The notes under the pieces are model-generated. The model worked only from the letters and a program-made list of their open reading frames with translations, made no database searches and was not told where the DNA came from. Position numbers and translations under genes: made by a program. Positions 40,390-55,586 of a stretch of DNA of 64,000 bases are shown in pieces. The stretch's first letter is position 1. Every line of letters starts with the position of its first letter. Source of the DNA: a virus; the IMG/VR virus record IMGVR_UViG_3300009194_000004, positions 62,001 through 126,000 of that record; one strand, given 5' to 3'.

Positions 40390-41277
40390 TTACACAACCG
40401 ATGCGCCATCGACGTCCTGTTCACCCAACGTGGGTTCAACACCACCAACATCCAGTGTGAACTCGGCACCGTTGGTTGAGTAACCCAGCGCGTGGTACGT
40501 GGATACGTGGACATTGACTTGTGCGGCAATGACTTCGTTGTACGTGAAGTTGCCAGCACCGCCACTGCTGCCCGATACTTCCTTATCCACACCAGAGACC
40601 AGGGCCAGTTCAGAAATGACCGGAGACCGAGTGGAACCGGTGCGAATCCGATGGGCATTCAGGATCTCTTCGATGTCCTTAGGCCCCAAGGCCACCGTCA
40701 CTACCGCCGAAGCGGATTCGGACGAGTTCGAACCAACAACCATACCGGAATTCGGAACTTTGGGACGCTGTGGGTTGAGGTTGTCAGTGGTAGGTACAAA
40801 CGGAGTGACGGTCGCGACGCCGTCCACAATCTCAACGCGCTGCAGTTGCGCGTTCACCTGGGTCATGTCAATCCGACGCAGGTAGTAGGCGATGTACTGA
40901 CGACCATTGTGGGATTCCTGTACCCGCAGGGCGTACCGACTACGTTCGTGGGCCGGGAGGTCGTCGTTCATTTCACGCAATACAAACGGAATCTGTCCGT
41001 ACAGCGCAGCGTCGGTGGCGCGATGTACAATGGGGACTGTTTCGTCACTGCCGTCGTCGGCTTTCACCGTCGCGTGACCGAGGTTGCCAATGGCCAAGTA
41101 CCGCATGCTTGGCACTTGATGACTTTCAGGTGCCACGCCGGACTGTACATTGAACCGTTCATTCAGTGTTGTGTTGGGTACCAACTTGAACGGCAGGCCC
41201 AGATTTTTGATGGTTTGCAGAAAGGTACCATACACCGTTCGGGTGATACCAATGATTTCCTGATCGATAGCTGCCAT
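40390..41277 (-). CDS. Probable virion structural protein (295 residues)
   Basis: ATG 41277 (MAAIDQEIIGITRTVYGTF) is preferred over an in-frame GTG at 41310, since CGGAG lies before it and the candidate -10 element lies at 41316-41321. The protein has a mixed fold (SMRYLAIGNLGHATVKAD ... IPFVLREMNDDLPAHERSRYALRV) and a Gly/Ser-rich end. It resembles conserved particle proteins of large phages in length and composition, but no specific assignment is possible. The next gene (RuvC-like) starts 10 bases after its stop. Confidence 0.6.
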   Translation of the reverse strand: MAAIDQEIIGITRTVYGTFLQTIKNLGLPFKLVPNTTLNERFNVQSGVAPESHQVPSMRYLAIGNLGHATVKADDGSDETVPIVHRATDAALYGQIPFVLREMNDDLPAHERSRYALRVQESHNGRQYIAYYLRRIDMTQVNAQLQRVEIVDGVATVTPFVPTTDNLNPQRPKVPNSGMVVGSNSSESASAVVTVALGPKDIEEILNAHRIRTGSTRSPVISELALVSGVDKEVSGSSGGAGNFTYNEVIAAQVNVHVSTYHALGYSTNGAEFTLDVGGVEPTLGEQDVDGASVV

Positions 41278-41315
41278 TGTCTTAAGACTCCGTAATAAGT
41301 GGTCGTTCACACACG

Positions 41316-41710: not shown

Positions 41711-42126
41711 ATCTCTCCTAACTCCTCTTTACAATAGCCGATGATAACCGAGTACAGTACTGTTGCTTTGAAGGAAGTGGTCAGAACCGCCGGTATCAGA
41801 GTATCGTAGACGACCGCCGTTTCTTCGTTGTAAGGTGTGAAATGGTCGTCGTCGTGGAGTAGTTGCGGGTGAGATAAAACCGAATAAAAGTTATTGTCGT
41901 ATTGTTTTGAAATATAATCGGCGTAACAAATCGCCACGATGTAGCTCTTCGCCGGGAACTCCAACGCTTCGACGTCACCATTGATCATGTTCAACGCACT
42001 GACAATCACATTGGGGTTATACGATCCCCCAAAGTAATCGGTTTTATTGCCTTCCCGATGAAAGCGTCTAAGACGGTCTAGCCAACCACCATTCAATGAG
42101 TGATTTGTACCCACTGCATTCGCCAT
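41707..42126 (-). CDS. Hypothetical protein at the end of the second radical-SAM unit
   Basis: ATG 42126 has AAGGAAGGATTGG and lies inside the 3' end of the radical-SAM gene at 42068-42967 (59-base overlap). At 139 residues it is a mixed, mainly helical protein containing RLRRFHREGNKTDYFGGSYNP, VSALNMINGDVEALEFPAK and SYIVAICYADYISKQYDNNF. It has no recognised motif. Tight overlap suggests functional linkage to the enzymes before it. Confidence 0.6.
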   Translation of the reverse strand: MANAVGTNHSLNGGWLDRLRRFHREGNKTDYFGGSYNPNVIVSALNMINGDVEALEFPAKSYIVAICYADYISKQYDNNFYSVLSHPQLLHDDDHFTPYNEETAVVYDTLIPAVLTTSFKATVLYSVIIGYCKEELGEI

Positions 42127-42967
42127 CCAATCCTTCCTTTCGTCGATAGTGTTCTGTCAAACATGTACCCTTAAACTCACACGAGCGACACACATCCGAA
42201 AGCAGGGTGTGTTTTTCTTTTTGGGTCCATTCAAGGTACGCATTGAAATCCGGGAGTTCCAGGAAAAACTCCCGATCGGCGTCGTCGAACTCCAAGACCC
42301 CAAAATTGCCATTTGGAGTGATGTAGACATGGTCGTCCGAGAACGCGTTACGGACACCGTCAGCGACGTCGTTCAATAATGCTGTGTTACGTAGCTGGCT
42401 GTTTGGAAAACCCATTACCCAGCGTTTCACGTACTCTACAAAGGCATTGTTTGTATTACCTCGATCATTGGCCTGATTGGGACTGTAAGGTTTGATTTCC
42501 ACCGAGTTCAAGTTCGCTAACGACCGGATCAATTCGATTTGCTGATCGACGTCACCGGCCATCACTTCCGGCGTGGCCAAAACAATGACGTTTATCGGAC
42601 GTGAAAACACCAACATGTTTGTGAAAACTTGTTCATGGTGGGGCCGGTGGTCAAAGTCATACGAGACGTTGACGTCGATATCGTCGTCGTATAGCCATTC
42701 CGACATTTGGTAGAAATTGGTGGTTATGGAAATGGGACCATCGTAATATCGCCGAACGACCCCCTTTAGATCATGGACGTACGTCTGATCCAACAGGGTC
42801 ACTTCACCACCATAAATCTCAACGGCTTCAATTTCGGGGAGTTCCGAGAGACGATGGTCCAGGTGTGTCAAATCCAACACGCGTCGAGACCGGAGCTGGT
42901 CTTCGGTTAAATAACAGTTCGCACATCGGAAATTACATCGGTACAAAGGGTTTATCGATACGATCAT
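42068..42967 (-). CDS. Radical SAM protein (second unit, 299 residues)
   Basis: Cys11, Cys15 and Cys18 in NPLYRCNFRCANCYL form the radical-SAM [4Fe-4S] motif CxxxCxxC. PEIEAVEIYGGEVTLLDQ is the GGE SAM-binding motif. The C-terminus has CRSCEFKGTCLTEHYRR...GECSG, a twitch/SPASM-like auxiliary cluster region. Length matches small peptide-modifying radical-SAM enzymes. The enzyme probably uses SAM-derived radicals on a peptide or small substrate. Its ATG (42967) is 23 bases from the oxygenase gene. Confidence 0.85.
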   Translation of the reverse strand: MIVSINPLYRCNFRCANCYLTEDQLRSRRVLDLTHLDHRLSELPEIEAVEIYGGEVTLLDQTYVHDLKGVVRRYYDGPISITTNFYQMSEWLYDDDIDVNVSYDFDHRPHHEQVFTNMLVFSRPINVIVLATPEVMAGDVDQQIELIRSLANLNSVEIKPYSPNQANDRGNTNNAFVEYVKRWVMGFPNSQLRNTALLNDVADGVRNAFSDDHVYITPNGNFGVLEFDDADREFFLELPDFNAYLEWTQKEKHTLLSDVCRSCEFKGTCLTEHYRRKEGLDGECSGYKSLIEWWLARPS

Positions 42968-42989
42968 TTAACACCCCATGATAGAGAGG

Positions 42990-43580
42990 TTAGTAACCTG
43001 TGGGGTGACCAAAGAACAGATCGCATGCTATCGACATACGCATAACCCCAGGACTGGGTTTTACGTAGTGTCCCAGATAACTTGGGAACACGTAAACCGT
43101 ATCGGCTTCGGGCGTTATTTGGTAGTTGGCAAAGTGGTTTTTCGTTATGTCCCACTCATAACCACGACCGGCACAACCACGTGGGTCGACGAGAACCAGA
43201 TTCCCTGGATTGGGAATCAGATAGAAAACAGCACTCACTTGAGCCCCGTTATGCACGTGCAGATCAAGACCGTCATTATTCTGACTATAAATACACCACA
43301 TGCTGGTTCTATAGTCTTTGTCGTTCAGCGTAATGCCGAACTCTTCTTGAACGTAACGGAGCAATGCGGGTAGTATAACGTCGTCGTGCAGTTTGCTCAA
43401 CGTAGGCCGTTCGGCGGGGTCGTATAAGTCAACCCTACTACCATACGCATTGTTATTGCTGTCCTCGTTGATCCCCATGGAAAATATCTCGCCGATGGCG
43501 ACGTCTATATCCACATCGTGATCCTCGATGTGGTCTTTGTGGATCACGGTTTTCCAAGGTTCTATGCGCTCGTATGCCAT
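42990..43580 (-). CDS. Putative 2-oxoglutarate/Fe(II) dioxygenase
   Basis: The 196-residue protein fits the 2OG-FeII_Oxy_5-type phage oxygenases. Metal-binding region around LDLHVHNGAQVSAVFYLIP (His108/His110), GNLVLVDPRG, then FPSYLGHYVKPSPGVMRMSIACDLFF with the distal His171 and the 2OG-binding Arg181. The family hydroxylates or otherwise oxidises amino acids or peptides, though substrates are mostly unknown. It lies between radical-SAM genes and could work on the same substrate, or on Pro/Lys of the phage's own collagen-like fibres. ATG 43580 follows AGGGGACGACA. Confidence 0.8.
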   Translation of the reverse strand: MAYERIEPWKTVIHKDHIEDHDVDIDVAIGEIFSMGINEDSNNNAYGSRVDLYDPAERPTLSKLHDDVILPALLRYVQEEFGITLNDKDYRTSMWCIYSQNNDGLDLHVHNGAQVSAVFYLIPNPGNLVLVDPRGCAGRGYEWDITKNHFANYQITPEADTVYVFPSYLGHYVKPSPGVMRMSIACDLFFGHPTGY

Positions 43581-43589
43581 TGTCGTCCC

Positions 43590-44282
43590 CTATGGGTTTT
43601 TGAACGTGGGGTCGCCTGGAAGTAGGTACTGTTTTATTTTGATCACTTCCAACGTGGATGCATCAAACAGACAACCAAACGCCCGTTTCTTTCGTGTGGT
43701 ATCACCGTCATTCGGTGGCGCAACATTAAAAAAGGTACCTATTTCCTTCCCAGTCAGGTCGGTGTAAAAATAGATGTCCCGGAAACGAAGTAATCGTTCA
43801 TCGTTTAAATGTAAACCTACACCGAAATAGTCGATTGGTACACACCCAGGCGGTAGCCGTGGGTATTGATGTCGTGCGATGTTGAGGTCGTACACCTTTA
43901 ATGCTTTTTGTTGCGTCTCCAATTGTAGCTTTAACGTGTAGGACGTACCTTGAACAAAACCCTCGGGTAGCTCACAATCAAACAATGGGGCGACCTGAGC
44001 AACGTCACACCGACGGTACGATATCGAAATAGTGTCTTCGGGGTAGTTGGTATTGTTTTTGCGGGTAAGGCCGATCAACTCCCAATTCTTCAATTCCGGC
44101 CACGGACTGGCTAAGATTTCAGGACTGTGTTCGATAGCCATATTGAACAAGGGTAGTACCGGTTCTGATAACACGGGGAAGTTGGGACGGTAGGTATTCT
44201 CGGACAACCCATTGGAATCAAGGGTGATTTCCTTTGCAGTCGGGTCGACCCCATCGATGTTAGTCAAAGAAACATTAGACAT
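43590..44282 (-). CDS. Hypothetical protein in second radical-SAM unit
   Basis: The 230-residue protein overlaps the radical-SAM gene upstream by 8 bases (ATG 44282, GAGGTAAGAA). Visible segments are TISISYRRCDVAQVAPLFDCELPEG, a SYTLKLQLETQQKALKVYDL strand/helix pair, and PIDYFGVGLHLNDERLLRF, with Cys-containing AFGCLFDASTLEVIKIKQYL near the end. No recognised family and no cofactor motif. Because of tight coupling it is likely a partner or another tailoring enzyme. Confidence 0.6.
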   Translation of the reverse strand: MSNVSLTNIDGVDPTAKEITLDSNGLSENTYRPNFPVLSEPVLPLFNMAIEHSPEILASPWPELKNWELIGLTRKNNTNYPEDTISISYRRCDVAQVAPLFDCELPEGFVQGTSYTLKLQLETQQKALKVYDLNIARHQYPRLPPGCVPIDYFGVGLHLNDERLLRFRDIYFYTDLTGKEIGTFFNVAPPNDGDTTRKKRAFGCLFDASTLEVIKIKQYLLPGDPTFKNP

Positions 44283-45309
44283 TTCTTACCTCAATCAAAT
44301 CGACAATACCAACTTCACTAGCTTGATTCAGTTCCGCTTCCAACGCTTTCATCTTACTGCAATGTTCGTCAACCCGACAACTTTCCTGTGTATCCATGAT
44401 CGTTTTCCGACATCCGTTACACAAACTGAAGAGTGAACATCCCCAACAGTCGTCATGCATGGACAGGTATAACATCGAATCCTGAAGAGGTGTGGTGATT
44501 GCGTCACTGGCCATCTCATTTTCAAAATCAATCGGAAACATGTCATCGTCACCAAATGCACCACAACTGTAATACGACCCGTCGGGATGTAGGTTACGAA
44601 TTCCTTTATCGCAGTCACGACTTATGGGACATGTCGTCTTAAGTCCGCCCAAGGAACGTATGAACTGCTGTGTGTTGTATTCCCATGGAGTCAACCCCGC
44701 CTTATGTATTTCGAGGTATTTGGCGTAAATGTCCCCCATCAAATAAGAAATACTTTGACGCCCGCTGGCGAATGCCCAATTAAGCTTACACACTACGCCC
44801 ATTTTTTTGGCCAGTCTGACATTATCCAAGGCGCGTTGAACGTTACTCTCGTCTATCACTGAGATGAAATCTGGACGGTACCCGACCCGCTCTAAGAACA
44901 GGTCACTGACTGCCCAAAAGTCCTCTTCTAAAAACACCCGTGTACGAGTAATTAATCGACTGTCACCGTAATGGAAGGACGTCCCCACCCCGATTTGTGG
45001 GTGGCGAAACAGCTCAGTCCATTTGTCGGGCCGCTTATAAAAGTCCCACAAGTTGGTCGTGAAGCTGACAATGGTTTCGGTCATGCCGCGTTCTTCCAAC
45101 AGCTTGAGGATATCCCAATAATAGTCGGGCCTGAGCATCAACGGATCACCACCGTTAACAATGATCGTTTGGGTGTTCGGAAACCGATCCAGAAAGCGAG
45201 CAATATAGTCCAGATTGAGAACGTCTTTCTTATCGTCGGTTATGTTGGTGGAGCTGCAGAACGTGCAGGCGAAGTTACAAAGTTCCGTTGGTTTGATGAT
45301 CAGATCCAC
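44275..45309 (-). CDS. Radical SAM/SPASM protein (344 residues), first gene of second unit
   Basis: Start GTG 45309 has AGGAG at 7 bases. CNFACTFC (Cys11, 15, 18) is the radical-SAM cluster, and TIIVNGGDPLML is the GG(D/E)P motif. The C-terminal part has CPISRDCDKGIRNLHPDGSYYSCGA and CWGCSLFSLCNGC...CRVDEHC, a classical SPASM double-cluster arrangement. The family matures ribosomal peptides and related substrates. It is expressed from its own unit after the 45378-45415 terminator. Confidence 0.9.
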   Translation of the reverse strand: MDLIIKPTELCNFACTFCSSTNITDDKKDVLNLDYIARFLDRFPNTQTIIVNGGDPLMLRPDYYWDILKLLEERGMTETIVSFTTNLWDFYKRPDKWTELFRHPQIGVGTSFHYGDSRLITRTRVFLEEDFWAVSDLFLERVGYRPDFISVIDESNVQRALDNVRLAKKMGVVCKLNWAFASGRQSISYLMGDIYAKYLEIHKAGLTPWEYNTQQFIRSLGGLKTTCPISRDCDKGIRNLHPDGSYYSCGAFGDDDMFPIDFENEMASDAITTPLQDSMLYLSMHDDCWGCSLFSLCNGCRKTIMDTQESCRVDEHCSKMKALEAELNQASEVGIVDLIEVRNV

Positions 45310-45377
45310 GGGTAAACTCCTGTTCGGTATTGGATGACTATATAGTTAGACGTCGGCGTTGAAAACAACCACACACA

Positions 45378-45415
45378 GCATAAAACCACGGCCTCAGGTA
45401 CCGTGGTTTTATGTC
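45378..45415. terminator. Terminator of the RCATAAA type, splitting the two radical-SAM units
   Basis: GCATAAAACCACGG-CCTCAGGTA-CCGTGGTTTTATGTCACC is a 12-bp stem with A/T flanks. It directly follows the 327-residue radical-SAM gene's stop codon and precedes the leader of the 344-residue one, so the cluster consists of two transcription units. Confidence 0.85.
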
Positions 45416-46397
45416 ACCATTGGTTTACTTTGGCGATTGTTTCCTTCGGTAAAACACACTCGGTGATTCCATAATCTTCCATGATTGACAACACGCGATG
45501 GTCCAGACACGTCGGCAGAAACGGACACTCGCCACACTCTTTCGTTTTGGTGGTGTAAGCGTACTGTTCTAAGATGACGGCGTCGTACTTCTTACGATAG
45601 TCCTCTACCCCGTCAACCCGGTACCGGTCACGGATTTGTATCAAATCTTCGTAAACGATGGGGATGGCGTAAAACTCATTCTCATAAAAAATGATTACGC
45701 GTTCTAGTTTGTCGTGCGGACTCACCACATCGACGTGTTGGTCGACCATACAGCCGTCGTTAGTCGCCTGAGTGGTGACGGTCACAGATTTTAACCAGTT
45801 AAACGCGCGCCGGTACTGTTCTGGATCGTTACTGGTTCGAGCAAACGACAGATTAAAGTCCACACCTTGACCGTACTGTCTGAGGTAAAAGTTGTTCAAC
45901 GTTTCGTAGTTATCGACTACCAACGACTGACTCAAATTCAACTGTGGGTGCAGGTACAGGTTCGGGAACCGGGCTTTGACGTCCCGAACCTTCTCGGCAA
46001 TGACCGCATTGTAGCGTTCGTTCAGGTTCTTCGATTCCGGAATGACCACGTTGATCTGAAGTTCCTTCATACCAAGACGATCAAGGGCGTTCAATACCTG
46101 TAAGTCGGGTTTCACCATGGTGGAGTTGACAACCAGTCGATCAAACCTTTTGATTAATTCAGTCAACCGAATGTCATTCAGGATCTCCATCGTGTTGGTG
46201 GCGGTGAAGATATCGGTACTACCCAAAACGACCGCATATGGGTCGAGGTGTTCTAGGAACTCATAGGCCACGCGGTACATCTTATCCGTAGCTTTATTGG
46301 GGGAATCACGATCAACATGGCAACCCGCGCAATTGAATGCACAACCCGCTAAGATCTCCAACTGCAGTTCGAATGAGTTGAATTTTTCGATGTTCAC
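45414..46397 (-). CDS. Radical SAM protein (327 residues), last gene of first unit
   Basis: Its GTG start overlaps the previous stop (GTGA). CAFNCAGC (Cys19, 23, 26) is the radical-SAM motif. TKTKECGECPFLPTCLDHR near the end is a CxxC...C auxiliary/twitch site. There is an ASP/GGEP-like region around DPYAVVLGSTDIF in place of a canonical GGE. It is about the length of small peptide-modifying radical enzymes, and its substrate is likely shared with the genes upstream. Confidence 0.85.
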   Translation of the reverse strand: MNIEKFNSFELQLEILAGCAFNCAGCHVDRDSPNKATDKMYRVAYEFLEHLDPYAVVLGSTDIFTATNTMEILNDIRLTELIKRFDRLVVNSTMVKPDLQVLNALDRLGMKELQINVVIPESKNLNERYNAVIAEKVRDVKARFPNLYLHPQLNLSQSLVVDNYETLNNFYLRQYGQGVDFNLSFARTSNDPEQYRRAFNWLKSVTVTTQATNDGCMVDQHVDVVSPHDKLERVIIFYENEFYAIPIVYEDLIQIRDRYRVDGVEDYRKKYDAVILEQYAYTTKTKECGECPFLPTCLDHRVLSIMEDYGITECVLPKETIAKVNQW

Positions 46398-47398
46398 GAA
46401 ATCACTCCATAGAGTCGTTTAAACTCACAATGTTTGTTTGTGATGTTCACGTGGTCACTGTGTAGAAAACAACCCAACCCGCAACGCTGATAAAACTCAC
46501 AACTCAGGCACTCGCGTTCTTGAATGAACCGGACCTCGGACTCATGGATGTTGTCAACAACAGTCGGGTCCGATTTGAACTGGTCCCGATCGGCCAAAAT
46601 CCGACAAGAGCCCGTATGTCCTGTCGGAAGAATGATGAACGAACTCCGACAGGTCGCTGTGTTGTGGTGATTCTCACGAAACCCTTTGACTGGTTGACAT
46701 TCCGGATAGTGTTTATCCAACCACAGGAAAAAGTCAACCAGTTCAACATCACTGGGCTGTAAAATTTCAGCGTTATCTTCGGGTGAATAATAGTCAAAGA
46801 AAATCGGGTAGTCCTGGTAAAGTCGATCAAACACGACGTTGGAACCACGCATGAATCGTTCAATGTTAGGTCGGGTCAACACCACGGAAATGTTTGACAG
46901 CCAGGGTTTGAACTTGGCCAGGTTTTCCTCAAACAGTTTAAGCGTCTGAGAGTTAAACCGACCCGCAGCATCGTAAGACGTGCAAAAGGTGAACGGAATC
47001 AGCAGTTCTTCCAATGTCTTGATGAACCGCATCACCCGCTCGGCCTTCTCGAACACTAAGTTGGTCACGAAATTGATTTCACAGTGTTTAACTGATGTCA
47101 CTACCCGATGACAGAACTCTACATAGTCGTCGAATACTCGATCGGGGAGTTCGTCCATGAACAACTCCCCACCCATGACGTTCACACTGTAAAAATCGTG
47201 ATCGTTGGTGTTATTAATGACAACGCTTGCTTTCTCAACAATCTCATCAACACCAGTCCAGTCGCTGTGGTCCTGCCAACAAAACCCACAGCTAAGGTTG
47301 CAGCGCTCAAAGAAGTTGATGAAAAATTCTTTATTCTGTCCCCGCTTTGCTTCCACTATCTCCACCAGCGGTATCAGGTCCGGGTTGTTCGTGGCCAT
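46394..47398 (-). CDS. Radical SAM protein (334 residues)
   Basis: ATG 47398 follows GGAGATACTCA and lies inside the end of the 250-residue gene. CNLSCGFC (Cys33, 37, 40) binds the radical-SAM cluster, and YSVNVMGGELFMDELP is the GGE motif. The C-terminus shows HTGSCRIL and CLSCEFYQRCGLGCFLHSDH...CEF, matching a SPASM-type cysteine pattern (C-x2-C-x5-C-x3-C). It is coupled to the next radical-SAM gene by a GTGA overlap. Confidence 0.9.
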   Translation of the reverse strand: MATNNPDLIPLVEIVEAKRGQNKEFFINFFERCNLSCGFCWQDHSDWTGVDEIVEKASVVINNTNDHDFYSVNVMGGELFMDELPDRVFDDYVEFCHRVVTSVKHCEINFVTNLVFEKAERVMRFIKTLEELLIPFTFCTSYDAAGRFNSQTLKLFEENLAKFKPWLSNISVVLTRPNIERFMRGSNVVFDRLYQDYPIFFDYYSPEDNAEILQPSDVELVDFFLWLDKHYPECQPVKGFRENHHNTATCRSSFIILPTGHTGSCRILADRDQFKSDPTVVDNIHESEVRFIQERECLSCEFYQRCGLGCFLHSDHVNITNKHCEFKRLYGVIS

Positions 47399-48083
47399 TG
47401 AGTATCTCCAAAGCGTATTTGTTTAAAAGCAACCAGTTGGGGTTTTCTTTATCCCCAACGAAGAAGTGAAACAGGTTCTTTCCGTTGAACATGTATTCTT
47501 CAAACTGGACAGGGAAATAAAACTGCCGGTAGTCCACCGCATCTCGGATAGAGAAAAACAACTCGAAGAACGAAGGAATCTCAAACAGCCAGACAACGTT
47601 AACACCGATATATTTCGGGTCGTTAATAACACCGTCATATCCCCGGAGATCTGGGTCTTTGTCATCGTCTATTGCTTTGATGTAGTCACAGTACTTGACC
47701 ATCGAAGAGCAGAACAAGAAATACCGGGCCAGCAGGTCGGAGTGTTCTTCAACAAATTCATCTAAGAATCCATCTGGGGTTTCGAATGTAGCGATCCCAG
47801 AGGTGTCCCCCTCCATGAAATGGATCAGTACCAACAACACAAGAACGTTGAGTTCTTCACACTTAAAGAGTGTGTTGATTTCCATGTAAACACTGAGTAA
47901 TTCTGAGAGTTCTTCTTTTGACAACGTCTCCACGTTGATCCGTGTTTTGACGTTCAGGTTTGCCAGGTAAAACACAAAGGGTTTCCCCTTTATTTTCGAA
48001 TTACTGTAATCGACAGTATACACTTTGTCGTTTTCGGCAATGACGTTGTGTAGGTCACTGATGGGGAGTGGTACGGTAATCAT
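47331..48083 (-). CDS. Hypothetical protein in first radical-SAM unit (250 residues)
   Basis: ATG 48083 follows GATGAGGCAAACGTC. The protein starts MITVPLPISDLHNVI and is rich in aromatic and hydrophobic residues, with segments such as YIGVNVVWLFEIPSFFELFF and NPNWLLLNKYALEILNG. The tail (PGPDTAGGDSGSKAGTE) is flexible. It overlaps the next radical-SAM gene by 68 bases. It has no cofactor motif; a substrate-recognition or scaffold role in the pathway is a guess only. Confidence 0.6.
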   Translation of the reverse strand: MITVPLPISDLHNVIAENDKVYTVDYSNSKIKGKPFVFYLANLNVKTRINVETLSKEELSELLSVYMEINTLFKCEELNVLVLLVLIHFMEGDTSGIATFETPDGFLDEFVEEHSDLLARYFLFCSSMVKYCDYIKAIDDDKDPDLRGYDGVINDPKYIGVNVVWLFEIPSFFELFFSIRDAVDYRQFYFPVQFEEYMFNGKNLFHFFVGDKENPNWLLLNKYALEILNGHEQPGPDTAGGDSGSKAGTE

Positions 48084-48093
48084 GACGTTTGCC

Positions 48094-49128
48094 TCATCCG
48101 TTCAGATTCATTTGTTTCAACACGTCTCGGTCTGCGTGGTACAAGTACCCGATGAAATTGTTATTCATGTTATCCCGAAATTCCGTGCGACCAAAAATTT
48201 GACTACAGTGGGTATTTATATCCATGTTGACCAGGTCTCTGGCTTTCGTTACCGTGAACGAACCCTCAGGAAGAACCCTGAGTAGGTGGTTCAGGAATGG
48301 ATCGGTGGTTCCATTCTTCGCATGGACTTTTTCGACAAGCTCACGTATTTCCTTGTGGTGCCTTTTAATAAACGCCACATTCCCTGGGTGGTTATCTGGA
48401 TTGAACAGCACTGTGTCCTCCAGTGCTTCGATCTGGTCGTCGATATCGTCCCGTTCCAAGTCAATATCAAACCCAAAGTTTTGCTTTAGGTTGTAGATCC
48501 CATATAACAAGTCACGTCGCACGCCCACGAAGTCCCATGCCACTGATTTCCAGAGGATTGTTTCCATGCGCTCTACGAACGCGGATACGTAGCGATCAGA
48601 TGGGTCAAAATCAACCAAGAGAACATGCGCCAGTAAGTATTCAAAACTGATACGCTCTTTCAGTTCGGCTGGGACGGGGCGCGGTTCTACTTCCTCATAC
48701 CAAGCCCTTACAGCATCCAGGGTGGGGATTGTGATGTTTCGAAAACCGTCTTTTCGCGAACCTTTGGTACTGGTGCGACTTCCATGCTCGTACTTGTGGT
48801 TCACCGCATTCAGTTTCAAGAATCGATGTACCATCTCCACACTTGCCAGTGGGAATAAGGATCGCAGCCAGACCACCAAAAAGTAATTCAGGGAACGCTC
48901 GTCTATTAAAATGGTGGTCTTTTGTCCGATAGGCGTCAGGCATTCAACAAATGTGAATAGGTCACCAAAGTCTCTCTCGATTGCGTCGACCGACACAAAC
49001 TGATACAATGGCCTAGGGCCATGCGTTACACGACACTGTCCAAGTGGTCCTACATAGACCAAGTTGTTGCGACCTACATTTCCAGTGAAATCGTAATCAA
49101 TATAAACCTTATCCAACAAATGTAACAT
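48094..49128 (-). CDS. Paralogous family member A of the radical-SAM operon
   Basis: At 344 residues this is one of three consecutive homologs. Shared elements include N-terminal MLHLLDKVYIDYDFTGN, a segment FLVVWLRSLFPLASVEMVHRFLKLNAV, the conserved block SFEYLLAHVLLVDFDPSDRY followed by RMETILWKSVAWDF, and LKQNFGFDIDLERDDIDDQI. The C-terminus is LYHADRDVLKQMNLNG. No cofactor or catalytic motif is recognised. ATG 49128 has GGCAGGTAAAAAAAATA. The function is unknown but must be tied to the precursor-like gene two to three genes upstream. Confidence 0.7.
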   Translation of the reverse strand: MLHLLDKVYIDYDFTGNVGRNNLVYVGPLGQCRVTHGPRPLYQFVSVDAIERDFGDLFTFVECLTPIGQKTTILIDERSLNYFLVVWLRSLFPLASVEMVHRFLKLNAVNHKYEHGSRTSTKGSRKDGFRNITIPTLDAVRAWYEEVEPRPVPAELKERISFEYLLAHVLLVDFDPSDRYVSAFVERMETILWKSVAWDFVGVRRDLLYGIYNLKQNFGFDIDLERDDIDDQIEALEDTVLFNPDNHPGNVAFIKRHHKEIRELVEKVHAKNGTTDPFLNHLLRVLPEGSFTVTKARDLVNMDINTHCSQIFGRTEFRDNMNNNFIGYLYHADRDVLKQMNLNG

Positions 49129-49150
49129 TATTTTTTTTACCTGCCGTCAG

Positions 49151-50188
49151 TCAGCCGTTCATTTTGAAATACTTCAAGGTCTCCGGCGTCAGATTGTAAA
49201 GATAATTAACAAAGACGCCGTTCGTGTCTTTGGTCATCTTCTCTCGACCAAAAAGAAAAGACCAGAGTGATTCTCTGTCGACAGCCACCAGTTCTTTCAG
49301 AACACTCCCGGTGAATGGTCGTTCCGGGTCTAAAAGGTCAAACAAGAAACGCCGATACTGGTCACCGTACCCAAGAAGCTCATCCACTTTATCCATCATC
49401 TTTCTGATGTACGCGTAATCCGCTTTGACGACATCCACGTCTTTATAGGTTATTGCCGGGTCGAAAAACCGCTTAACCTCAGGCTGATTAAGTTGGTACT
49501 CGATATCATTTCGATCAAAATTAATCGGCAGACCAAGTGTTTTCTTCAACCTAAACCCATTGTAGAAAGCCGCCATTCGACGCTTAACAAAATCCCTAGC
49601 GCAGGATATCCACAACATGTGTTCAATTTTCTTAGAAAGTTGATCTACATGCGGGTCAGCGTCGTCAAAATCCACACTTAAGGAGTGAGCCAAGAGTGTT
49701 TCATAGCTCAGGTGTTTTTTGAGTTCCGAACAATACCCACTACCATGTTTCGAACCCGCGTAAAAGCGTTTCGTGTCGTCCAGTGTTGGAGCCGGAAGCT
49801 GGTCAGCGTAATGATCGTAAGCAAACCCCCTAACTCGAACAAAACGATGGTGTATGTAGAAGGTCCTCAGGATTGCGTGGATGATTTCCACCGGCATCTC
49901 AGGATACACCGCTCGATAGTGGGTCACCACTAGCTGGTACATGTCGTCAATGTCCAACATTAACCACACGTCGCCTTCAGTAAGAATCAATGTTTCCATG
50001 AATGTAGGTAGGTCGCCAAAAGCATCCAACGCTTCTTCGAGGTTGGTGAATTCCATGAGTCCTTCGGGATGGAATTCATTTTGAGTATGCGTACGGTCGT
50101 CCAGATAAATGTACGAGTCGGTTGGTTGTTTCAGGTCAACGCTCGTAAATGCAAAGTCCGCCCGGACGTCATCAATTAAGTGCAGCAT
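49151..50188 (-). CDS. Paralogous family member B of the radical-SAM operon
   Basis: ATG 50188 is chosen over an in-frame upstream start at 50317 because AAAGGAAAC lies before it and the preceding stop is only 2 bases away. The 345-residue product shares with its neighbours MLHLIDDVRADFAFTSV, LSYETLLAHSLSVDFDDADPH, MLWISCARDFVKRRMAA, LKKTLGLPINFDRNDIEYQL and the end TLKYFKMNG. It contains no Cys-rich or nucleotide-binding motif. Confidence 0.7.
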   Translation of the reverse strand: MLHLIDDVRADFAFTSVDLKQPTDSYIYLDDRTHTQNEFHPEGLMEFTNLEEALDAFGDLPTFMETLILTEGDVWLMLDIDDMYQLVVTHYRAVYPEMPVEIIHAILRTFYIHHRFVRVRGFAYDHYADQLPAPTLDDTKRFYAGSKHGSGYCSELKKHLSYETLLAHSLSVDFDDADPHVDQLSKKIEHMLWISCARDFVKRRMAAFYNGFRLKKTLGLPINFDRNDIEYQLNQPEVKRFFDPAITYKDVDVVKADYAYIRKMMDKVDELLGYGDQYRRFLFDLLDPERPFTGSVLKELVAVDRESLWSFLFGREKMTKDTNGVFVNYLYNLTPETLKYFKMNG

Positions 50189-50190
50189 GG

Positions 50191-51240
50191 TTATGTTTCC
50201 TTTGTTGGGGACAGGACCATATCTGAAATCTTTACAGGCGTGACTGAATGCAGGTAACTGAATATAAGGGAGCCTGTTCCCCATAATGCATCGTCGATAC
50301 CGAAGAATGCACTCCACGGACGCTTCCGGTCGGCGTCAATCAGCTCGATGAATTCGTCGTGTGTGATCTCATGGTCCTTCAAGAAGAAGCTAACGGCGAG
50401 CTCCTTGAAGTCCTCTACAATGTTATTGCGTTTGTTGTTAACGCTAATAGCGTGGTGGATTTTCTGGGCGTTAGCTGCAGTTATCTCATTAAGTGATTCA
50501 TCAAACCCCAGCGCTTCATCCAGCTTTGAGATTTGTTCCTCGATGTCGTCCGCCAGCGGATCGATATCTAGGTCTAGGTTTTTCTTTAGACCGAAGATTC
50601 CTAATAACAGCCTACGGCGCCATGTGGTGTAGTCAGTCACCAACATTTGCCACAACAACGCTTCCATCCGTCGTCTAAAACAGATGACATAAGGATCTGA
50701 CTCAGAATAGTTACACGCATGTGCGTGAACCATAAGGTATTCAATAGAAACGTTCTCTTTTACCAAATCGGAGAACTCACCATTTACTCCCGCCTCTTCG
50801 TACCAAATGCGCGTCTGCATTGGTGTCGGGACTGTAAGTCCGAGTCTACCCTCACGATTAATGCTCGCGCGGGTGGAAAGGCGAATCTGGCTGTATTTTT
50901 GGTCGATCGTCACCATTCTCAAGAACCGATGTGTGTTCTCAAGCGTGATGTTTGGAAAAATACCACGCAAGAAATGAACGTAAAAACGGTTTAGATCTTG
51001 CTCGTCGATGAACGCCGTGACATCACGACCACTGTGAATAATGGATTCGATGAATCCATTTATACCACCAGGGGCGTCTATAAGCACATCAAGATTGGGG
51101 TACTTCATCAGCGGAGTTGCGTCTTGAGAAAAAGCCTTAGACCCGAGGGAGTTAATATAAACAATATCTTTCGGGTTGGCCCTAGCGTTCGGACTGGAAA
51201 ATGAGTAATCAAGCGACAGGCCGTTTGTCAACCGGATCAT
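50191..51240 (-). CDS. Paralogous family member C of the radical-SAM operon
   Basis: The start overlaps the precursor-like gene's stop (ATGA), so translation is probably coupled to it. At 349 residues: MIRLTNGLSLDYSFSS, SIEYLMVHAHACNYSESDPY, RMEALLWQMLVTDYTTWRRR, LKKNLDLDIDPLADDIEEQI, and a C-terminus without the (M/K)NG end of the others. It is the copy closest to the putative substrate and a likely binding partner. Confidence 0.7.
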   Translation of the reverse strand: MIRLTNGLSLDYSFSSPNARANPKDIVYINSLGSKAFSQDATPLMKYPNLDVLIDAPGGINGFIESIIHSGRDVTAFIDEQDLNRFYVHFLRGIFPNITLENTHRFLRMVTIDQKYSQIRLSTRASINREGRLGLTVPTPMQTRIWYEEAGVNGEFSDLVKENVSIEYLMVHAHACNYSESDPYVICFRRRMEALLWQMLVTDYTTWRRRLLLGIFGLKKNLDLDIDPLADDIEEQISKLDEALGFDESLNEITAANAQKIHHAISVNNKRNNIVEDFKELAVSFFLKDHEITHDEFIELIDADRKRPWSAFFGIDDALWGTGSLIFSYLHSVTPVKISDMVLSPTKET

Positions 51241-51779
51241 CGTCTGCTCCTTGAACCGTGGCAGTTGCTGTGGCAGTTCGAATGACAGACTGACAGATCC
51301 ACGATCTCACCGTTGTGAATGCGTTCATATAACTCGTTCTGAACTGTTTGGATCAGGTCGGATAGATTTGACCGATCAGCATCGTTTCGAGTGGAAATGT
51401 AGGTCGGGTCACCACCGGCGGTTTTCAAGCTGTGTATGCTCTGGCGGTAATTATTGTTCAGTGCTGCAATACCCCACTCTTTATCGTGATCGCCGTTTGT
51501 GTAATTACTGCCAGAATAATGACGCGCGGTGTAAACCTTGCGCATTGAAGTACAACGTTCCGCTTCGGCTTTGATCACGTCAACAACGTTACTTGCATCG
51601 ACATCTCCGGTGTTTGCATCAGTACCCCTATCAAAATGAGACAGTTCCACCAGCGGACTTTGGTCCATGTACTTGTCGTCCCGGGCAGAACCCTTCCACC
51701 ATTTCGCTTGGTCCTTGGCGTACTGGTTGATGTTGTTATTGACAGCCGCGTGAAAATCACTCCGTTTTAAATCAGCCAT
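51237..51779 (-). CDS. Candidate modified-peptide precursor with CHSNCHSNCHGSRSRR end
   Basis: The 180-residue protein begins MADLKRSDFHAAVNNNINQ and has a long hydrophilic, Asn/Asp-rich leader-like body (residues 1-164). The last 16 residues are C165HSNC169HSNC173HGSRSRR: three cysteines spaced by three residues, each followed by His, then a basic tail. Compact C-terminal Cys/His/Ser/Asn repeats next to a SPASM radical-SAM gene are the pattern of RiPP precursors. It starts one base after that gene's stop and overlaps the following gene. It could instead be a small virion protein whose C-terminus is cross-linked. No family name is claimed. Confidence 0.75.
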   Translation of the reverse strand: MADLKRSDFHAAVNNNINQYAKDQAKWWKGSARDDKYMDQSPLVELSHFDRGTDANTGDVDASNVVDVIKAEAERCTSMRKVYTARHYSGSNYTNGDHDKEWGIAALNNNYRQSIHSLKTAGGDPTYISTRNDADRSNLSDLIQTVQNELYERIHNGEIVDLSVCHSNCHSNCHGSRSRR

Positions 51780-51780
51780 G

Positions 51781-52917
51781 TTAGAATACCTCTACAACTG
51801 GGATCGTTTTTGTATCCGAAGTCAGCGCGGACGGCTCTTTCTCATACCGAATGCCTTCCTCACCCATGAACCCATTGAGTACTTCCTTCAGGATGTCCTG
51901 ATCGGTGTTTTTCATGGACCGCATCATGGACTTTGGAGAAGCACAGATATCGCCCTGCCAATTAAGTTGATGACAATCGCCATTACAAACGTCAAATACG
52001 TCACAACTGAAACAGACTTCGTTCAGGGTGCTTTCGGTTGCAATGTTACATCCACGTCCTTCCGAGAACACGATATCTGAAATGGTTTGATCCAAGGTTC
52101 CGAACGTCGTCTCAGGGGCGCCATTGGGACACCCGCCAATGGTACCATCGGCGTTCAGGGTTAGAATCTTCTGTTCGCATTCCCGACTACGGCACCCGGA
52201 AAACGTATTGAATACAGTGCTGGTCAGCAGGCTTTCTAGGAACATGTTCAAGATCTTTTCGTACGCCTTGTGTTCCAACGTCTGTTCCCACATTTTCAAG
52301 AACCACGCGTCCAACTCCAGATTGGTAGGAAAAATACCGGTGTTCTCACGGGCGTTACCATTCTCAGTGATGCGTTCAAAGTTGATGAACGCAACCCCAA
52401 GGTTGGTCATCTTGTTGATCAAGTCGATTGGCTCAACATCCATCAGGTCTTTGGACACGCAAATCATGACCGTGACGTCTATGCCTTCGGCCACTAACTT
52501 ACGGACGTTTTCTTCCCACAGCGCTTCTTGGTTGCGGTTCCCTTGCCAACGGATGCTGTAATCCCAGGATGTCCCGATTGAAGTTCCTGCCACTTTCTTC
52601 AGAAACGCCAGTCGGTCATCTGTCAGCTTATACGTCAGGTTGGTTTGAATACCCCATGTCAAGTTATCCCAGAGTCCATCCAGCTCATCGTAAACCTTTT
52701 CCATTTTGTCCAGCGGGCAGAGCATCGGCTCGCCACCATGGAACGAGATGTTGGCGGAACGGAAGGTGGGGAACTGAGCTTTCAGTCGGTGAAAGAAGTC
52801 AATGGTGGCATCCGGGTCAAACCAACCCTTCTTCCCGTTGGTACCACTTGTGAAACAGTGCTGGCAGTTTAACTGGCAAGTTTCGGTAGTTTTCAGGTAG
52901 ACCATTAAATCACGCAT
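51781..52917 (-). CDS. Radical SAM/SPASM maturase adjoining the precursor-like gene
   Basis: ATG 52917 (MRDLMVYLKTTETCQLNCQHC) is chosen (CGAGGA upstream) because the in-frame extension to 53094 would overlap the fibre gene. The 378-residue product has C14QLNCQHC21 (radical-SAM), SANISFHGGEPML (GGEP), and the SPASM region GCRSRECEQ...GGCPNGA plus VCFSCDVFDVCNGDCHQ (Cys302-315) and a further Cys325. It is the closest in this window to anSME/RiPP-type SPASM maturases. It heads the operon and probably installs the first modification in the CHSN-type peptide. Confidence 0.9.
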   Translation of the reverse strand: MRDLMVYLKTTETCQLNCQHCFTSGTNGKKGWFDPDATIDFFHRLKAQFPTFRSANISFHGGEPMLCPLDKMEKVYDELDGLWDNLTWGIQTNLTYKLTDDRLAFLKKVAGTSIGTSWDYSIRWQGNRNQEALWEENVRKLVAEGIDVTVMICVSKDLMDVEPIDLINKMTNLGVAFINFERITENGNARENTGIFPTNLELDAWFLKMWEQTLEHKAYEKILNMFLESLLTSTVFNTFSGCRSRECEQKILTLNADGTIGGCPNGAPETTFGTLDQTISDIVFSEGRGCNIATESTLNEVCFSCDVFDVCNGDCHQLNWQGDICASPKSMMRSMKNTDQDILKEVLNGFMGEEGIRYEKEPSALTSDTKTIPVVEVF

Positions 52918-52974
52918 GGTACGTCCTCGTTTATTTCTAATGAATGTCGCTACTGTACAATCATGACCATAAGT
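52918..52974 (-). promoter_or_regulatory. Likely promoter region of the first radical-SAM unit
   Basis: This A/T-rich gap of about 57 bases lies between the fibre terminator hairpin (52975-53005) and the maturase start. It contains minus-strand TACTTATGGTCATGATTGTACAGTAG and the ribosome site CGAGGA. No exact -35/-10 set stands out. Because the terminator isolates it from the upstream fibre gene, the operon must start here. Confidence 0.4.
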
Positions 52975-53005
52975 AAAAAAAGCAGCAGTGGGCTTACACC
53001 CACTG
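52975..53005 (-). terminator. Terminator overlapping the fibre stop codon
   Basis: On the minus strand CAGTGGG-TGTAAG-CCCACTG is followed by CTGCTTTTTTTA. The hairpin covers the TAA stop of the 309-residue fibre gene. It separates the tail-fibre transcript from the radical-SAM operon. Confidence 0.85.
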
Positions 53006-53923
53006 TGCCGGCCAAACGACCTTCCAACCACCGTTGACGTAGGCTTGCAGTTGATTGTTACGGACCCGCAGACTGGTCTCGTCTGTAGAACCAATTCGCA
53101 CGTAACGCCCGTCGTGGTGATTCACGTTCGGGTTAGCGTGGGTGGCAAGTGCGACACCCACGGCGTGTGGTGACATGTACCGGGTTTTGGTGGACATGTC
53201 CGCCGCCTGGGTATCCGTGGCCATTTTGTAGTTTTCGACGTCCCCCAGTCCCACCTGGGCCTTAGTAACCTTGTGTGGGTTGGTGCCGTCTTCCATGTGG
53301 TCGACCAAGCGGTTCTCGACTCGGTTTCGATCTTCGGCTGCTTCTTCAAACAACATCAACGCGTAGGCACGCGTTTCATCGTGAAGTGCTTGGTCACCAG
53401 CCATGATCGCCTGAACAATCCGTTCCAGTTCGGTGACAACCGGCTCAAACCCATACAGTTCCCACAAGGCGTGCAGGTGGCCAGCCGCTGGGTACTCGTT
53501 AGGCTTGCCGATGATGTTGGCCCACTCCACGGGCCGATCTTCTTCAGCCAGTGTGTCGATCACCTGCTGGAGTGCGTCGGTTGAAACTGCAAAGTCTCCA
53601 CCCACTACCTGGTAATCCAGGAACACACTGGTCGAAACATTGGGGTTAACAACGATGATCGCCCCACAGACTTCCAGACCGCTTCGGGTCGTGGCCCGTT
53701 CGTACAGGTAAGTGGCGATATAATCATCGCCCTTACGAAGCTCTGCACCTGACACATCCCGGAGGACCATGTCGCGGGTGTAGAACCCGCCGTAATTGGG
53801 AACCAAGACCCGGTAGTTACCGGTGGTCACGGCGGCGTCCAGATCGTGTCGCTCGCCCAGGATGCGGTTATCCGGATTCCGGCCCGTCAAATCCAACGGG
53901 TATTTGTTAACAATGAGTGACAT
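52994..53923 (-). CDS. Tail fibre protein with NPH repeat (309 residues)
   Basis: The N-terminus (SLIVNKYPLDLTGRNPDNRILGERHDL) and following beta-rich region resemble those of the neighbouring 548-residue fibre. It includes DGTNPHKVTKAQVGLGDVENYKMAT, the widespread phage tail-fibre repeat, and MSPHAVGVALATHANPNVNHHDGRYVR. The C-terminus is short (QLQAYVNGGWKVVWPAQWV). Lower part of a trimeric fibre is likely. Confidence 0.75.
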   Translation of the reverse strand: MSLIVNKYPLDLTGRNPDNRILGERHDLDAAVTTGNYRVLVPNYGGFYTRDMVLRDVSGAELRKGDDYIATYLYERATTRSGLEVCGAIIVVNPNVSTSVFLDYQVVGGDFAVSTDALQQVIDTLAEEDRPVEWANIIGKPNEYPAAGHLHALWELYGFEPVVTELERIVQAIMAGDQALHDETRAYALMLFEEAAEDRNRVENRLVDHMEDGTNPHKVTKAQVGLGDVENYKMATDTQAADMSTKTRYMSPHAVGVALATHANPNVNHHDGRYVRIGSTDETSLRVRNNQLQAYVNGGWKVVWPAQWV

Positions 53924-53939: not shown

Positions 53940-55586
53940 TTAGGCTTCAAGTTGGGCGGACGCGTCATCGAATGCCGCAATCAGGGTGTCCGTGACGTCT
54001 TGGGCACCGGCACCGACGGTGGGAATCGGTGTCCGACCACTTCCACGGGTTGGGTAGTACAGACCAGGATCGGGCAGGAACTGACCTGTCGGTTGACGCA
54101 CTGGGATGAATGTAATTCCTTCAGCGGGAACGTTGGTCACATCCAGTGACAGTTCCATGACCCGCTCAGCGCCGGTACCGGTGATACCCAACATGAAATC
54201 CCGCATGGGCGGGATGCCGTTCAGTGTGGTTATGTTTACCGTTTCGTTTGTCCAGTCGGCTTCAATACTAACCCACGCTTTACGTCCATCGGGTCCTGGT
54301 ACGCTACCAAGCATGTGAAGGGGTTCGTCGGTTTCACTGAGGTGATAAAACGGCAGATGTTCATCGCGTCCGAAACTGTCTCCAGAGGTGAAGTCCCAGG
54401 TATACGTTGCGAAATACACAAATTGCGTGTACATGTCGTCCTTGATGTCACCATACGTCATGTTCTCCAGCATTTGGGAGTTAGCAGCCGTGCCCAACAG
54501 GATGTCCTGTTTCAACCCTTCGAGGGTCATCCCAAATGTCCGGTCGGTGTCGTAAGCGGTACCATCGACCCGGAGGTAATTCTGCAAGATACCGTTGATG
54601 GTATCCATGCTGATTGCGCCGATATCCGCAGCGGTAATTCCGTGGGGGTTATTGGTGTCACTGAAATGCGGTTCCAGAACCTCGTCCTTGAGGGCTTGGA
54701 TGACCACCTCTACCAGATACGGGGTCATGTACCGGTCGTTACGGGTCCCGTCATACGCTTCGCCCGGTGTGGCGATTCCGAAGTTCTGTACTAGCGAAAG
54801 ACCTACGTCGGCTTTATCAGTACCGTGGGGGTTGTCGGCGTTCAGGTGTTCGTCAATTTCCCGTTGTACAGCTGCCCCTACAGCAACGTCCGTCGACTTC
54901 GGTGACATATAACGGTCACTGCGGAGTCCTTCGGCTGCCTCGGTCTCGTTGGCCATCGGGAAGTTTTGTACGTACTCCAGCCCCACCTGTTTCTTGGTGA
55001 CCATGTGAGGGTTGTCCCGACTGTTCATGTGGTCGGTTACAGTCCCCGCTTCCGTATCACCCAGTGCACGATTGATATCACCGATGGCTTCAACCACTTC
55101 TTCGAAACCGATCAGTTCACCGGTGCCCTGATCGTGTGGGATCGGTGGGAACAACGCCGGGAGTGTGTCAATCTGACTCCATGCGCGAGTCAATGGGTTG
55201 ACAGCTTTATTCGACAGCTCTTCCAATACGGCTTGATCTGAGAAGCCCCAGTGACCCCCGATGGTTTGGTAGGTCATGGACACAATACCACCGATATCGC
55301 GACTCAGGAAGCGCAGAGAACCTGCCAGAGCCTTACCGGTGTTGTTGGAGCCTTCGGGGAAATAGTGACCAAAGAGAAAGTCACGTCCTTCCTTATACAG
55401 ACGACCAGTTGCTTGGTCACGGATCTCAAACGACTCCACGTAAAACGGAGCCGCCTGAGGGATGATGAAATAATAGTCATCCCGGCCAGGGACCTGCAGG
55501 GTCTGCAACTCCCCATCGATTTTGTTTGCCGGGTTGGTACCGTACGGGTCGAACTCGTACAGTCCCGTGGTGTTTACAGTAGCCAT
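53940..55586 (-). CDS. Long tail fibre protein with NPH repeats (548 residues)
   Basis: ATG 55586 follows AAGGAGAGGTC. The N-terminal virion-binding part (LYEFDPYGTNPANKIDGELQTL) is paralogous to the 309-residue fibre. Three copies of the fibre repeat follow (NSRDNPHMVTKKQVGLEYVQNFPMA; NADNPHGTDKADVGLSLVQNF; DTNNPHGITAADIGAIS), along with MSPKSTDVAVGAA-type linkers. The C-terminus is mixed beta. It differs completely in design from the collagen-like fibres, so the phage carries at least two fibre systems. Confidence 0.8.
   Translation of the reverse strand: MATVNTTGLYEFDPYGTNPANKIDGELQTLQVPGRDDYYFIIPQAAPFYVESFEIRDQATGRLYKEGRDFLFGHYFPEGSNNTGKALAGSLRFLSRDIGGIVSMTYQTIGGHWGFSDQAVLEELSNKAVNPLTRAWSQIDTLPALFPPIPHDQGTGELIGFEEVVEAIGDINRALGDTEAGTVTDHMNSRDNPHMVTKKQVGLEYVQNFPMANETEAAEGLRSDRYMSPKSTDVAVGAAVQREIDEHLNADNPHGTDKADVGLSLVQNFGIATPGEAYDGTRNDRYMTPYLVEVVIQALKDEVLEPHFSDTNNPHGITAADIGAISMDTINGILQNYLRVDGTAYDTDRTFGMTLEGLKQDILLGTAANSQMLENMTYGDIKDDMYTQFVYFATYTWDFTSGDSFGRDEHLPFYHLSETDEPLHMLGSVPGPDGRKAWVSIEADWTNETVNITTLNGIPPMRDFMLGITGTGAERVMELSLDVTNVPAEGITFIPVRQPTGQFLPDPGLYYPTRGSGRTPIPTVGAGAQDVTDTLIAAFDDASAQLEA

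Follow-up and report, generated by a model that had tools for sequence, protein, structure and literature searches.

A predicted radical-SAM maturation island for a Cys-His-tailed, fibre-associated protein of large-tailed phages and predatory bacteria

Introduction

Radical S-adenosylmethionine (SAM) enzymes of the SPASM type, whose seven-Cys C-terminal pattern is the hallmark of two auxiliary clusters, modify bacteriocin-like peptides. The peptide maturases of this type (TIGR04085; DarE, PapB, CteB and the sulfatase maturase) have a CxxxCxxC core, the seven-Cys SPASM region and an adjoining gene for a Cys-rich substrate, and in proteusin-type pathways, such as that of polytheonamide, several radical-SAM enzymes, B12-type radical-SAM enzymes and Fe(II) oxygenases are grouped around one substrate gene. 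Here we analyze an island of viral genes that resembles both. It spans about 42068–52917 of the window, by which we mean the whole 64,000-nucleotide (64-kb) stretch under analysis, positions 62,001 to 126,000 of the 131,438-base virus record IMGVR_UViG_3300009194_000004. On its minus strand, the gene for a radical-SAM/SPASM maturase of 378 amino acids (aa; 51781–52917) is followed, 1 base later, by the gene for a 180-aa protein, its presumed substrate (51237–51779), which carries at its extreme C-terminus the tail CHSNCHSNCHGSRSRR (51240–51287), built of Cys-His (CH) units.

The same enzyme mix as in proteusin-type pathways surrounds one substrate gene in these phage loci; however, the island is phage-borne, lies beside tail fibres and has no known peptide product. 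Unlike the substrates of described SPASM maturases, the presumed substrate here is a phage or predator protein of 124–364 aa with a C-terminal tail, and among the matches listed the window maturase reaches no equivalog cut-off. Island proteins do match phrog_1802, phrog_35144 and phrog_20767, which are labelled as of unknown function or as "radical SAM", but these labels cover single genes and not the pairing, the tail or the operon. Similarly, the accessible parts of three phage genome papers (PMC8066314, PMC11898562, PMC5468394) list radical-SAM, cupin and 2-oxoglutarate (2OG)-Fe(II) oxygenase genes singly and make no mention of the tail protein or of a joint function. An earlier note on this DNA had supposed the gene set to be undescribed, and in the portion of the literature covered, which excluded preprints and included few subscription papers, we likewise saw neither the pair nor the tail described.

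From comparison of sequences, we favour on balance, and with some reserve, the explanation that the island encodes a set of enzymes that would modify the tail of a fibre-associated virion protein belonging to the host-contact apparatus.

The maturase and its Cys-His-tailed partner

The maturase, which begins at an internal ATG of the open reading frame (ORF) 51781–53094, belongs to the radical-SAM superfamily by its match to PF04055 (30.2 bits, cut-off 29.5), and an alignment of five phages places it in the SPASM subfamily: the CxxxCxxC cysteines (C14, C18, C21) and the seven SPASM cysteines (C247, C263, C302, C305, C311, C315, C325) are all invariant. Its score against the SPASM-domain model TIGR04085 is 26.2 bits, for a cut-off of 27. 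Among NCBIfam models the maturase weakly resembles darobactin, dynobactin and PapB-type maturases, and its best match is the anaerobic sulfatase maturase TIGR03942 (E 3.7e-18). Such an enzyme might turn the last Cys of CHxSR into formylglycine and so place a reactive aldehyde on the virion, which would suit both this best match and the C-x-x-x-R form of the last tail unit in 154 of 175 tails. The match, however, scores 65.8 bits against an equivalog cut-off of 349.45, and 21 of the 175 tails lack that Arg. In the solved sulfatase maturase, moreover, the Asp that follows an auxiliary-cluster Cys is the catalytic base, and the present family has Pro or Ala there. Sulfatase-maturase chemistry is unlikely, and we consider a formylglycine on the virion very improbable.

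The 180-aa partner found no match in Pfam or NCBIfam at E ≤ 1 and nothing better than E 0.2 among PDB sequences. It is 19–25% identical, over its full length, to four phage relatives, and with them it shares the C-terminal ending CHxxCHxxCHxxRxRR, in which the Cys, the His and three Arg are invariant; the corresponding DNA pattern has one match in the window and none in 100 shuffles. An AlphaFold2 model of the protein has a predicted local distance difference test (pLDDT) score of 78.6 and a predicted template-modelling score (pTM) of 0.75, with the final residues at a pLDDT of about 55. Compared with solved structures, the body of the model gave no Foldseek match at E ≤ 0.001 (best E 0.6), and in a second fold comparison the best VIA Z was only 2.4. 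A search of viral models with the same protein returned five matches at E ≤ 0.001, among them the 296-aa tail protein of Agrobacterium phage Atu_ph07 (E 8.7e-4, 12% identity), a match that, at the level of predicted models, ties two divergent bodies together. In Myoviridae sp. ctijX18, three proteins of 504–660 aa (A0A8S5USJ7, A0A8S5USV2, A0A8S5USJ8) also match the tail-protein fold (E 2e-4 to 1.2e-3).

Across the wider collection, 168 complete tail proteins of 124–364 aa have bodies of eight groups, with no blastp link from one group to another. The 175 tail proteins of the collection were gathered with a pattern that needs at least three CH units, so that their uniformity is partly built in. 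Within it, 21 distinct tails end in GSI or GSL (L025–L029 and others), and a like operon accompanies them in L026, L055 and L087. Four and five CH units, instead of three, are present at L119:8105-8878 and L013:9096-9653. Tandem tail proteins of 247–309 aa (L044:9085-10598, L083:8930-10644) carry the same C-terminal tail on bodies unjoined by blastp, and two tail proteins from environmental contigs have no relatives in phage records. A heme motif, brought to mind by the CxxxCH spacing, was considered and dropped as unlikely in a protein made in the cytosol.

Pairing of maturase and tail across phages

Because a DNA search with the 7.6-kb unit matched no phage record, relatives were sought at the protein level. 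Matches to the maturase at E ≤ 1e-5 occur in 7 of 50,697 phage records, namely Burkholderia phages FLC6, FLC8 and SURPRISE13, Agrobacterium phage Atu_ph07 (two records), Sinorhizobium phage Phosso and Pseudomonas phage pPa_SNUABM_DT01. The pair recurs in phages of all four host genera, and in the four phages detailed the gene next after that of the maturase specifies a CH-tail protein of 178–306 aa. When viral contigs were scanned with the maturase alignment, 361 relatives emerged, 80 of which were taken into the analysis. By a strict pattern, a tail ORF lies downstream of the maturase in 71 of these 80 loci, and in 62 of the 71 its first base falls −23 to +28 bases from where the maturase gene ends. 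Of the nine others, five leave less than 1.2 kb for such an ORF and four do not fit the strict pattern, two of these four having variant tails in which the third Cys is missing.

When loci were clustered at 85% identity, 33 non-redundant ones remained (28 from viral contigs, the window and four phage records), and a tail protein is present in all 33, a count in which the tail was sought anywhere in the locus and which includes the variant tails L016 and L018, admitted when the pattern was extended after inspection. The loci inspected one by one do not include L015, whose contig stops 1.2 kb past the maturase, or L017. The search in the opposite direction agrees: at least 120 stretches were found by the tail alone, not de-duplicated and partly on contigs of the maturase scan, with a pattern that also requires R-x-R-R and so partly builds in their uniformity. 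All 120 listed stretches have a radical-SAM-family gene on the contig, 114 of them within the stretch and 6 elsewhere. The maturase itself is in the stretch in 86 cases and elsewhere on the contig in 26 more, and two further cases hold pieces truncated by the contig end. Tail proteins lacking a radical-SAM neighbour, which the earlier note had named as the case that would speak against its proposal, are thus absent from the 120, and its idea that the adjacent maturase acts on the 180-aa protein gains from the recurrent pairing.

Judged by these sequence comparisons, the pairing is far from chance, and this conclusion is well supported. In adjoining a substrate gene (71 of 80 loci by the strict pattern; a tail in the locus in 33 of 33), the maturase behaves as in a pathway for ribosomally synthesized and post-translationally modified peptides (RiPPs), but the partner is no short precursor of leader and core, being a protein of 124–364 aa with a folded body.

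The pairing also bears on the possibility that the tail simply binds a metal or an Fe-S cluster at a fibre tip, through three Cys-His pairs per chain, and that the radical enzymes act elsewhere, on host surface molecules, nucleotides or other virion proteins. The CHxx spacing is regular, and phage fibre tips with metal-binding His are known. This explanation nevertheless sits poorly with the joint presence of maturase and tail protein in 33 of 33 loci and on nearly all listed tail-found contigs, and the genes, mostly overlapping or close, fit an enzyme and its substrate better; we hold it to be improbable.

A further question is whether modification falls on the tail. Pairwise identity averages 0.78 for the tail, an upper value since the tail-picking pattern fixes its Cys and His, as against 0.28 for the body, and the tail exceeds the body in 595 of 595 pairs; the maturase-anchored set is a fairer test of tail uniformity than the tails collected by pattern. 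This contrast, the position of the tail at the exact C-terminus and the several oxidative enzymes of each locus are what one would expect if the tail were a recognition or docking signal only and the variable body were modified, in the way that a conserved leader directs peptide-modifying enzymes to the variable core. On the other hand, the Cys and His of every repeat unit suggest chemistry over simple docking, the body has a fairly confident predicted fold, and the Bdellovibrionota described below retain the enzymes though their tail units vary. Docking as the sole role of the tail appears unlikely to us, if worth keeping in mind.

A probable link to virions and tail fibres

The genomic surroundings suggest where the CH-tail protein is used. 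The 11-kb stretch 42000–53000 of the window recurs at 100% identity in a viral contig of 231,818 bases, so the source virus is very likely a jumbo phage. The two genes upstream of the island encode tail or virion-structural proteins according to PHROGs: one at 52994–53923 (minus strand) is virion structural and tail-fibre-like (phrog_2163, virion structural, E 1.2e-96; phrog_13857, tail), and the other, at 53940–55586 (minus strand), is a tail protein (phrog_13857, E 1.1e-118). Upstream of the island, at 52986–53005 on the minus strand, is an intrinsic-terminator-like site (hairpin and T-run, z −4.3).

Among the 33 loci, neighbouring genes were grouped as single-linkage blastp clusters of simply called ORFs (F0–F9), most of them named from one or two scanned members. 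A tail-fibre family (F6, named from one member that matches tail-fibre PHROGs) is found in 14 loci. In a second arrangement, two short tandem tail genes (124–140 aa) adjoin an F6 gene in five of the five loci examined, the F6 genes of two such loci running to 1,519 and 2,037 aa within the stretch; these are mostly followed by a gene of family F7, a gene of F4 size, one of F1 and more radical-SAM genes.

For Atu_ph07, the accessible part of the genome paper gives the virion-protein gene cluster as "CDS 170-215" (PMC6102473), and the first coding sequence (CDS) of this cluster, gp170, is the CH-tail protein. The numbering of the paper agrees with the Atu_ph07 record for the portal (gp198), the prohead core (gp204) and the major head protein (gp215); gp182, a baseplate wedge in the paper, is "hypothetical" in the record. 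We consider a virion role for the CH-tail protein likely.

The earlier note had left open whether the product was a phage-made peptide or a modified virion part, and the second of these is favoured because the protein is of appreciable length, its gene lies among fibre genes and its homologue opens the virion cluster of Atu_ph07. That the phage secretes a modified peptide akin to a bacteriocin, to act on competitors or as a signal, would be in keeping with the use of radical-SAM/SPASM enzymes on such peptides and with the weak likeness of the maturase to darobactin, dynobactin and PapB-type maturases, and one Bacteriovorax island does adjoin two ABC-transporter genes. Yet complete tail proteins measure 124–364 aa, Pfam and PHROGs scans of island proteins revealed no peptidase or exporter, and the gene neighbours fibre genes and, in Atu_ph07, opens a cluster of virion genes, so that we give this explanation next to no credence.

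Islands in predatory bacteria

The tail is not confined to viral contigs. Scanning 84,980 genomes for it gave 19 stretches, and in 16 of these the tail is in frame and C-terminal. By their titles, eight of the 16 belong to Bdellovibrionota families, and one more (L225, genome G046) is grouped in the same phylum; the other seven, in genome bins of other groups, may be phage contigs. The Bdellovibrionota contigs hold much of the island set. Since three of these islands adjoin household genes (pyruvate kinase, cytochrome oxidase subunit I and acyl-CoA dehydrogenase) and one further island lies in a 4.15-Mb contig, the island is chromosomal in those bacteria. In a Bacteriovorax genome, the two ABC-transporter genes that adjoin the island (L230:6390-9783) are possibly part of it. 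The maturase is present in 16 of 290 genomes of a sample of the phylum, eight of which the tail scan had already picked out, and a CH tail or a variant of it lies near the maturase in 13 of the 16; in the other three, about 4 kb was read in each and contained no CH tail. Variants among the Bdellovibrionota tails include CHGNFPPPCHGSRGRR and CHSNHCSHSNHGSRGRR.

These islands, too, have fibre genes nearby. Of eight genomes sampled, five have Peptidase_S74 fibre genes close to the island, and four of the five genes have an N-methylation match, three of them over its cut-off. According to the accessible part of one study, B. bacteriovorus has 13 S74 fibres (PMC10769870), and an S74 neighbour by chance would therefore be uncommon, though possible. 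The S74 genes near several bacterial islands recall the mosaic adhesive trimer fibres of Bdellovibrio described there, but the CH-tail protein itself is not such a fibre, and the main text of that study nowhere uses the term "radical SAM".

A tree of 69 maturases (17 bacterial and 52 labelled phage, seven of the latter being genome-bin loci, L209, L214, L216–L218, L221 and L226, labelled so by their short contigs, without proof) places the window enzyme in a group of eight with support of 100/98, five of the eight being bacterial. The label switches between phage and bacterial at least five times in the tree (starred branches).

Other genes of the island

All eight minus-strand ORFs of the proposed operon are present, and its couplings hold, from the 1-base gap after the maturase through the 4-base ATGA overlap and the 2-base gap to the GTGA overlap. 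The limits of the set are different from those first drawn. The operon had been thought to end at 45414 and to include two further radical-SAM proteins, whereas the enzyme set continues to 42068 with two more radical-SAM genes and one 2OG-Fe(II) oxygenase, giving four further radical-SAM proteins and five in all. Of two supposed flanking terminators, the upstream one stands as a hairpin with a T-run and appears in the terminator scan; the one assigned to the end of the operon (45378–45415, minus strand) is a strong hairpin (z −3.7) with no T-run, lies inside the island and is absent from the list of the terminator scan, which found 20 sites in the window against 12.5 expected from shuffles.

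Downstream of the CH-tail gene, and like all genes of the island on the minus strand, are three paralogs of family F4 (about 345 aa, unknown). The first (50191–51240) has no Pfam match and no PDB sequence match. The second (49151–50188) starts at an internal ATG of the listed ORF 49151–50317, and its best Pfam match is below cut-off; the third (48094–49128), assigned as an ORF and by paralog comparison, is 28% and 30% identical to the other two. The earlier note took this three-paralog set as central, but F4 occurs in 20 of the 33 loci (24 members) and as a single copy in 17 of those 20. The family has no match among PDB sequences and is unrelated to F1 by profile comparison. F1, to which the 250-aa protein of the window belongs (47331–48083; phrog_20767, E 2.2e-41), is in 31 of 33 loci; its AlphaFold2 model (pLDDT 87.8) has no fold match in the PDB at E ≤ 0.001, and the family has no sequence match there.

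The radical-SAM gene that follows (46394–47398; phrog_1802, E 5.5e-33; PF04055 below cut-off) has an unsure start, because its first ATG implies a 68-base overlap with the 250-aa gene. Next are a divergent radical-SAM protein of family F7 (45414–46397; PF04055 E 1.1e-4, below cut-off; phrog_31457 E 1.2e-11), another radical-SAM protein (44275–45309; PF04055 38.6 bits, over the cut-off; phrog_1802 E 7.8e-48), an ORF for a 230-aa unknown protein (43590–44282), the 2OG-Fe(II) oxygenase (42990–43580; PF13759 47.7 bits, cut-off 27; phrog_81 E 5.6e-25) and a last radical-SAM protein (42068–42967; phrog_1802 E 5.3e-26; PF04055 E 3.6e-4, below cut-off). In other words, one of the four non-maturase radical-SAM proteins exceeds the PF04055 cut-off and three are below it. 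Just beyond the island, the window contains a DUF7208 protein and a PARP acidic-repeat-like match that is below cut-off (40390–41310 and 39246–39806).

In the 33 loci, neighbours mostly share a strand. Radical-SAM family F0 (101 members) is found in all 33, and other families by their scanned members are Cupin_2/JmjC_2 (F5, 22 loci), a weak 2OG-Fe(II) oxygenase match (F3, 15), a combination of B12-binding and radical-SAM domains, both below curated cut-offs (F9, 13), and a 2OG-Fe(II) oxygenase (F8, 12); the divergent radical-SAM family F7 is in 8. JmjC_2 enzymes hydroxylate His or Arg of ribosomal proteins, and by analogy those of the island might act on tail His or Arg, which are fixed in most tails; we offer this as a suggestion only. 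No JmjC_2 gene was found in the record of the window's virus or in its 231.8-kb twin. In SURPRISE13, the radical-SAM island contains two genes annotated as dihydrofolate reductase (L001:14928-16105).

A proposed mechanism

How might the island work? We suggest that the CH-tail protein would be made as an ordinary folded protein, after which the SPASM enzyme, using a reductive 4Fe-4S cluster and two auxiliary ones, would bind the CHxxCHxxCHxxRxRR tail and oxidise tail Cys or neighbouring residues, most likely into cross-links. Cross-links at tail Cys are our first guess since the enzyme is of SPASM type and the Cys are nearly fixed. Additional changes would come from the other radical-SAM enzymes and the 2OG-Fe(II) oxygenase and, in relatives, from JmjC/cupin and B12-type radical-SAM enzymes as well; F1 and F4 might be dedicated helpers such as chaperones or adaptors. 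The matured protein would then become part of a tail fibre or of another appendage of the phage tail, or cap it, and there its modified C-terminus may form a rigid, protease-resistant, or metal- or receptor-binding end. What the sequences show directly is the pairing of the genes, a tail conserved on a body that drifts, the motifs of the enzymes, the nearness of fibre genes and the presence of the set in predators. Of the proposed steps, we infer the substrate status of the CH-tail protein and its place in the virion; the exact chemistry and the roles of F1, F4 and the tail are guesses.

Several observations weigh against this proposal. Modification of the tail is itself a prediction drawn from comparison, and the tail is the most conserved part of the protein, which, by analogy with many peptide systems, could mark a recognition element and not a modified core. 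Moreover, there is no universal residue set: the 21 Arg-less tails end in CHxxCHxxCHGS[IL], and some Bdellovibrionota tails are short of one or more CH units. Six tail-bearing fragments (5.6–38.7 kb) contain other radical-SAM genes and no member of the maturase family. As to location, the modelled body resembles no known fold and thus gives no structural sign of a fibre role, and gp170 would count as a detected virion protein by the limit of the cluster. Among the bacteria, no S74 gene was seen in three of the eight genomes sampled (2–6 genes scanned there), and three of the five S74-positive genomes look like near relatives.

Outlook

Taking phages and bacteria together, we put forward, as a tentative idea whose chances fall a little short of even, that large-tailed phages and Bdellovibrionota share, via repeated gene transfer, a C-terminal "CHxx" cap, modified by radical enzymes, on a fibre-associated attachment protein. 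We found no description of such a tailored attachment device for virions. The comparison suggests that phages and predatory bacteria both chemically modify a protein used for prey contact.

If this proposal is correct, a role would emerge for the unexplained radical-SAM, 2OG-Fe(II) oxygenase and cupin genes of jumbo and marine phages; one T4-like marine genome, for example, has 12 radical-SAM genes according to the accessible part of one report (PMC5332604). Hundreds of natural maturase-substrate pairs would also be on offer. Ultimately, virions would bear enzyme-made chemistry, beyond the twenty amino acids, at the place where they meet the host, and the same device would serve predatory bacteria.

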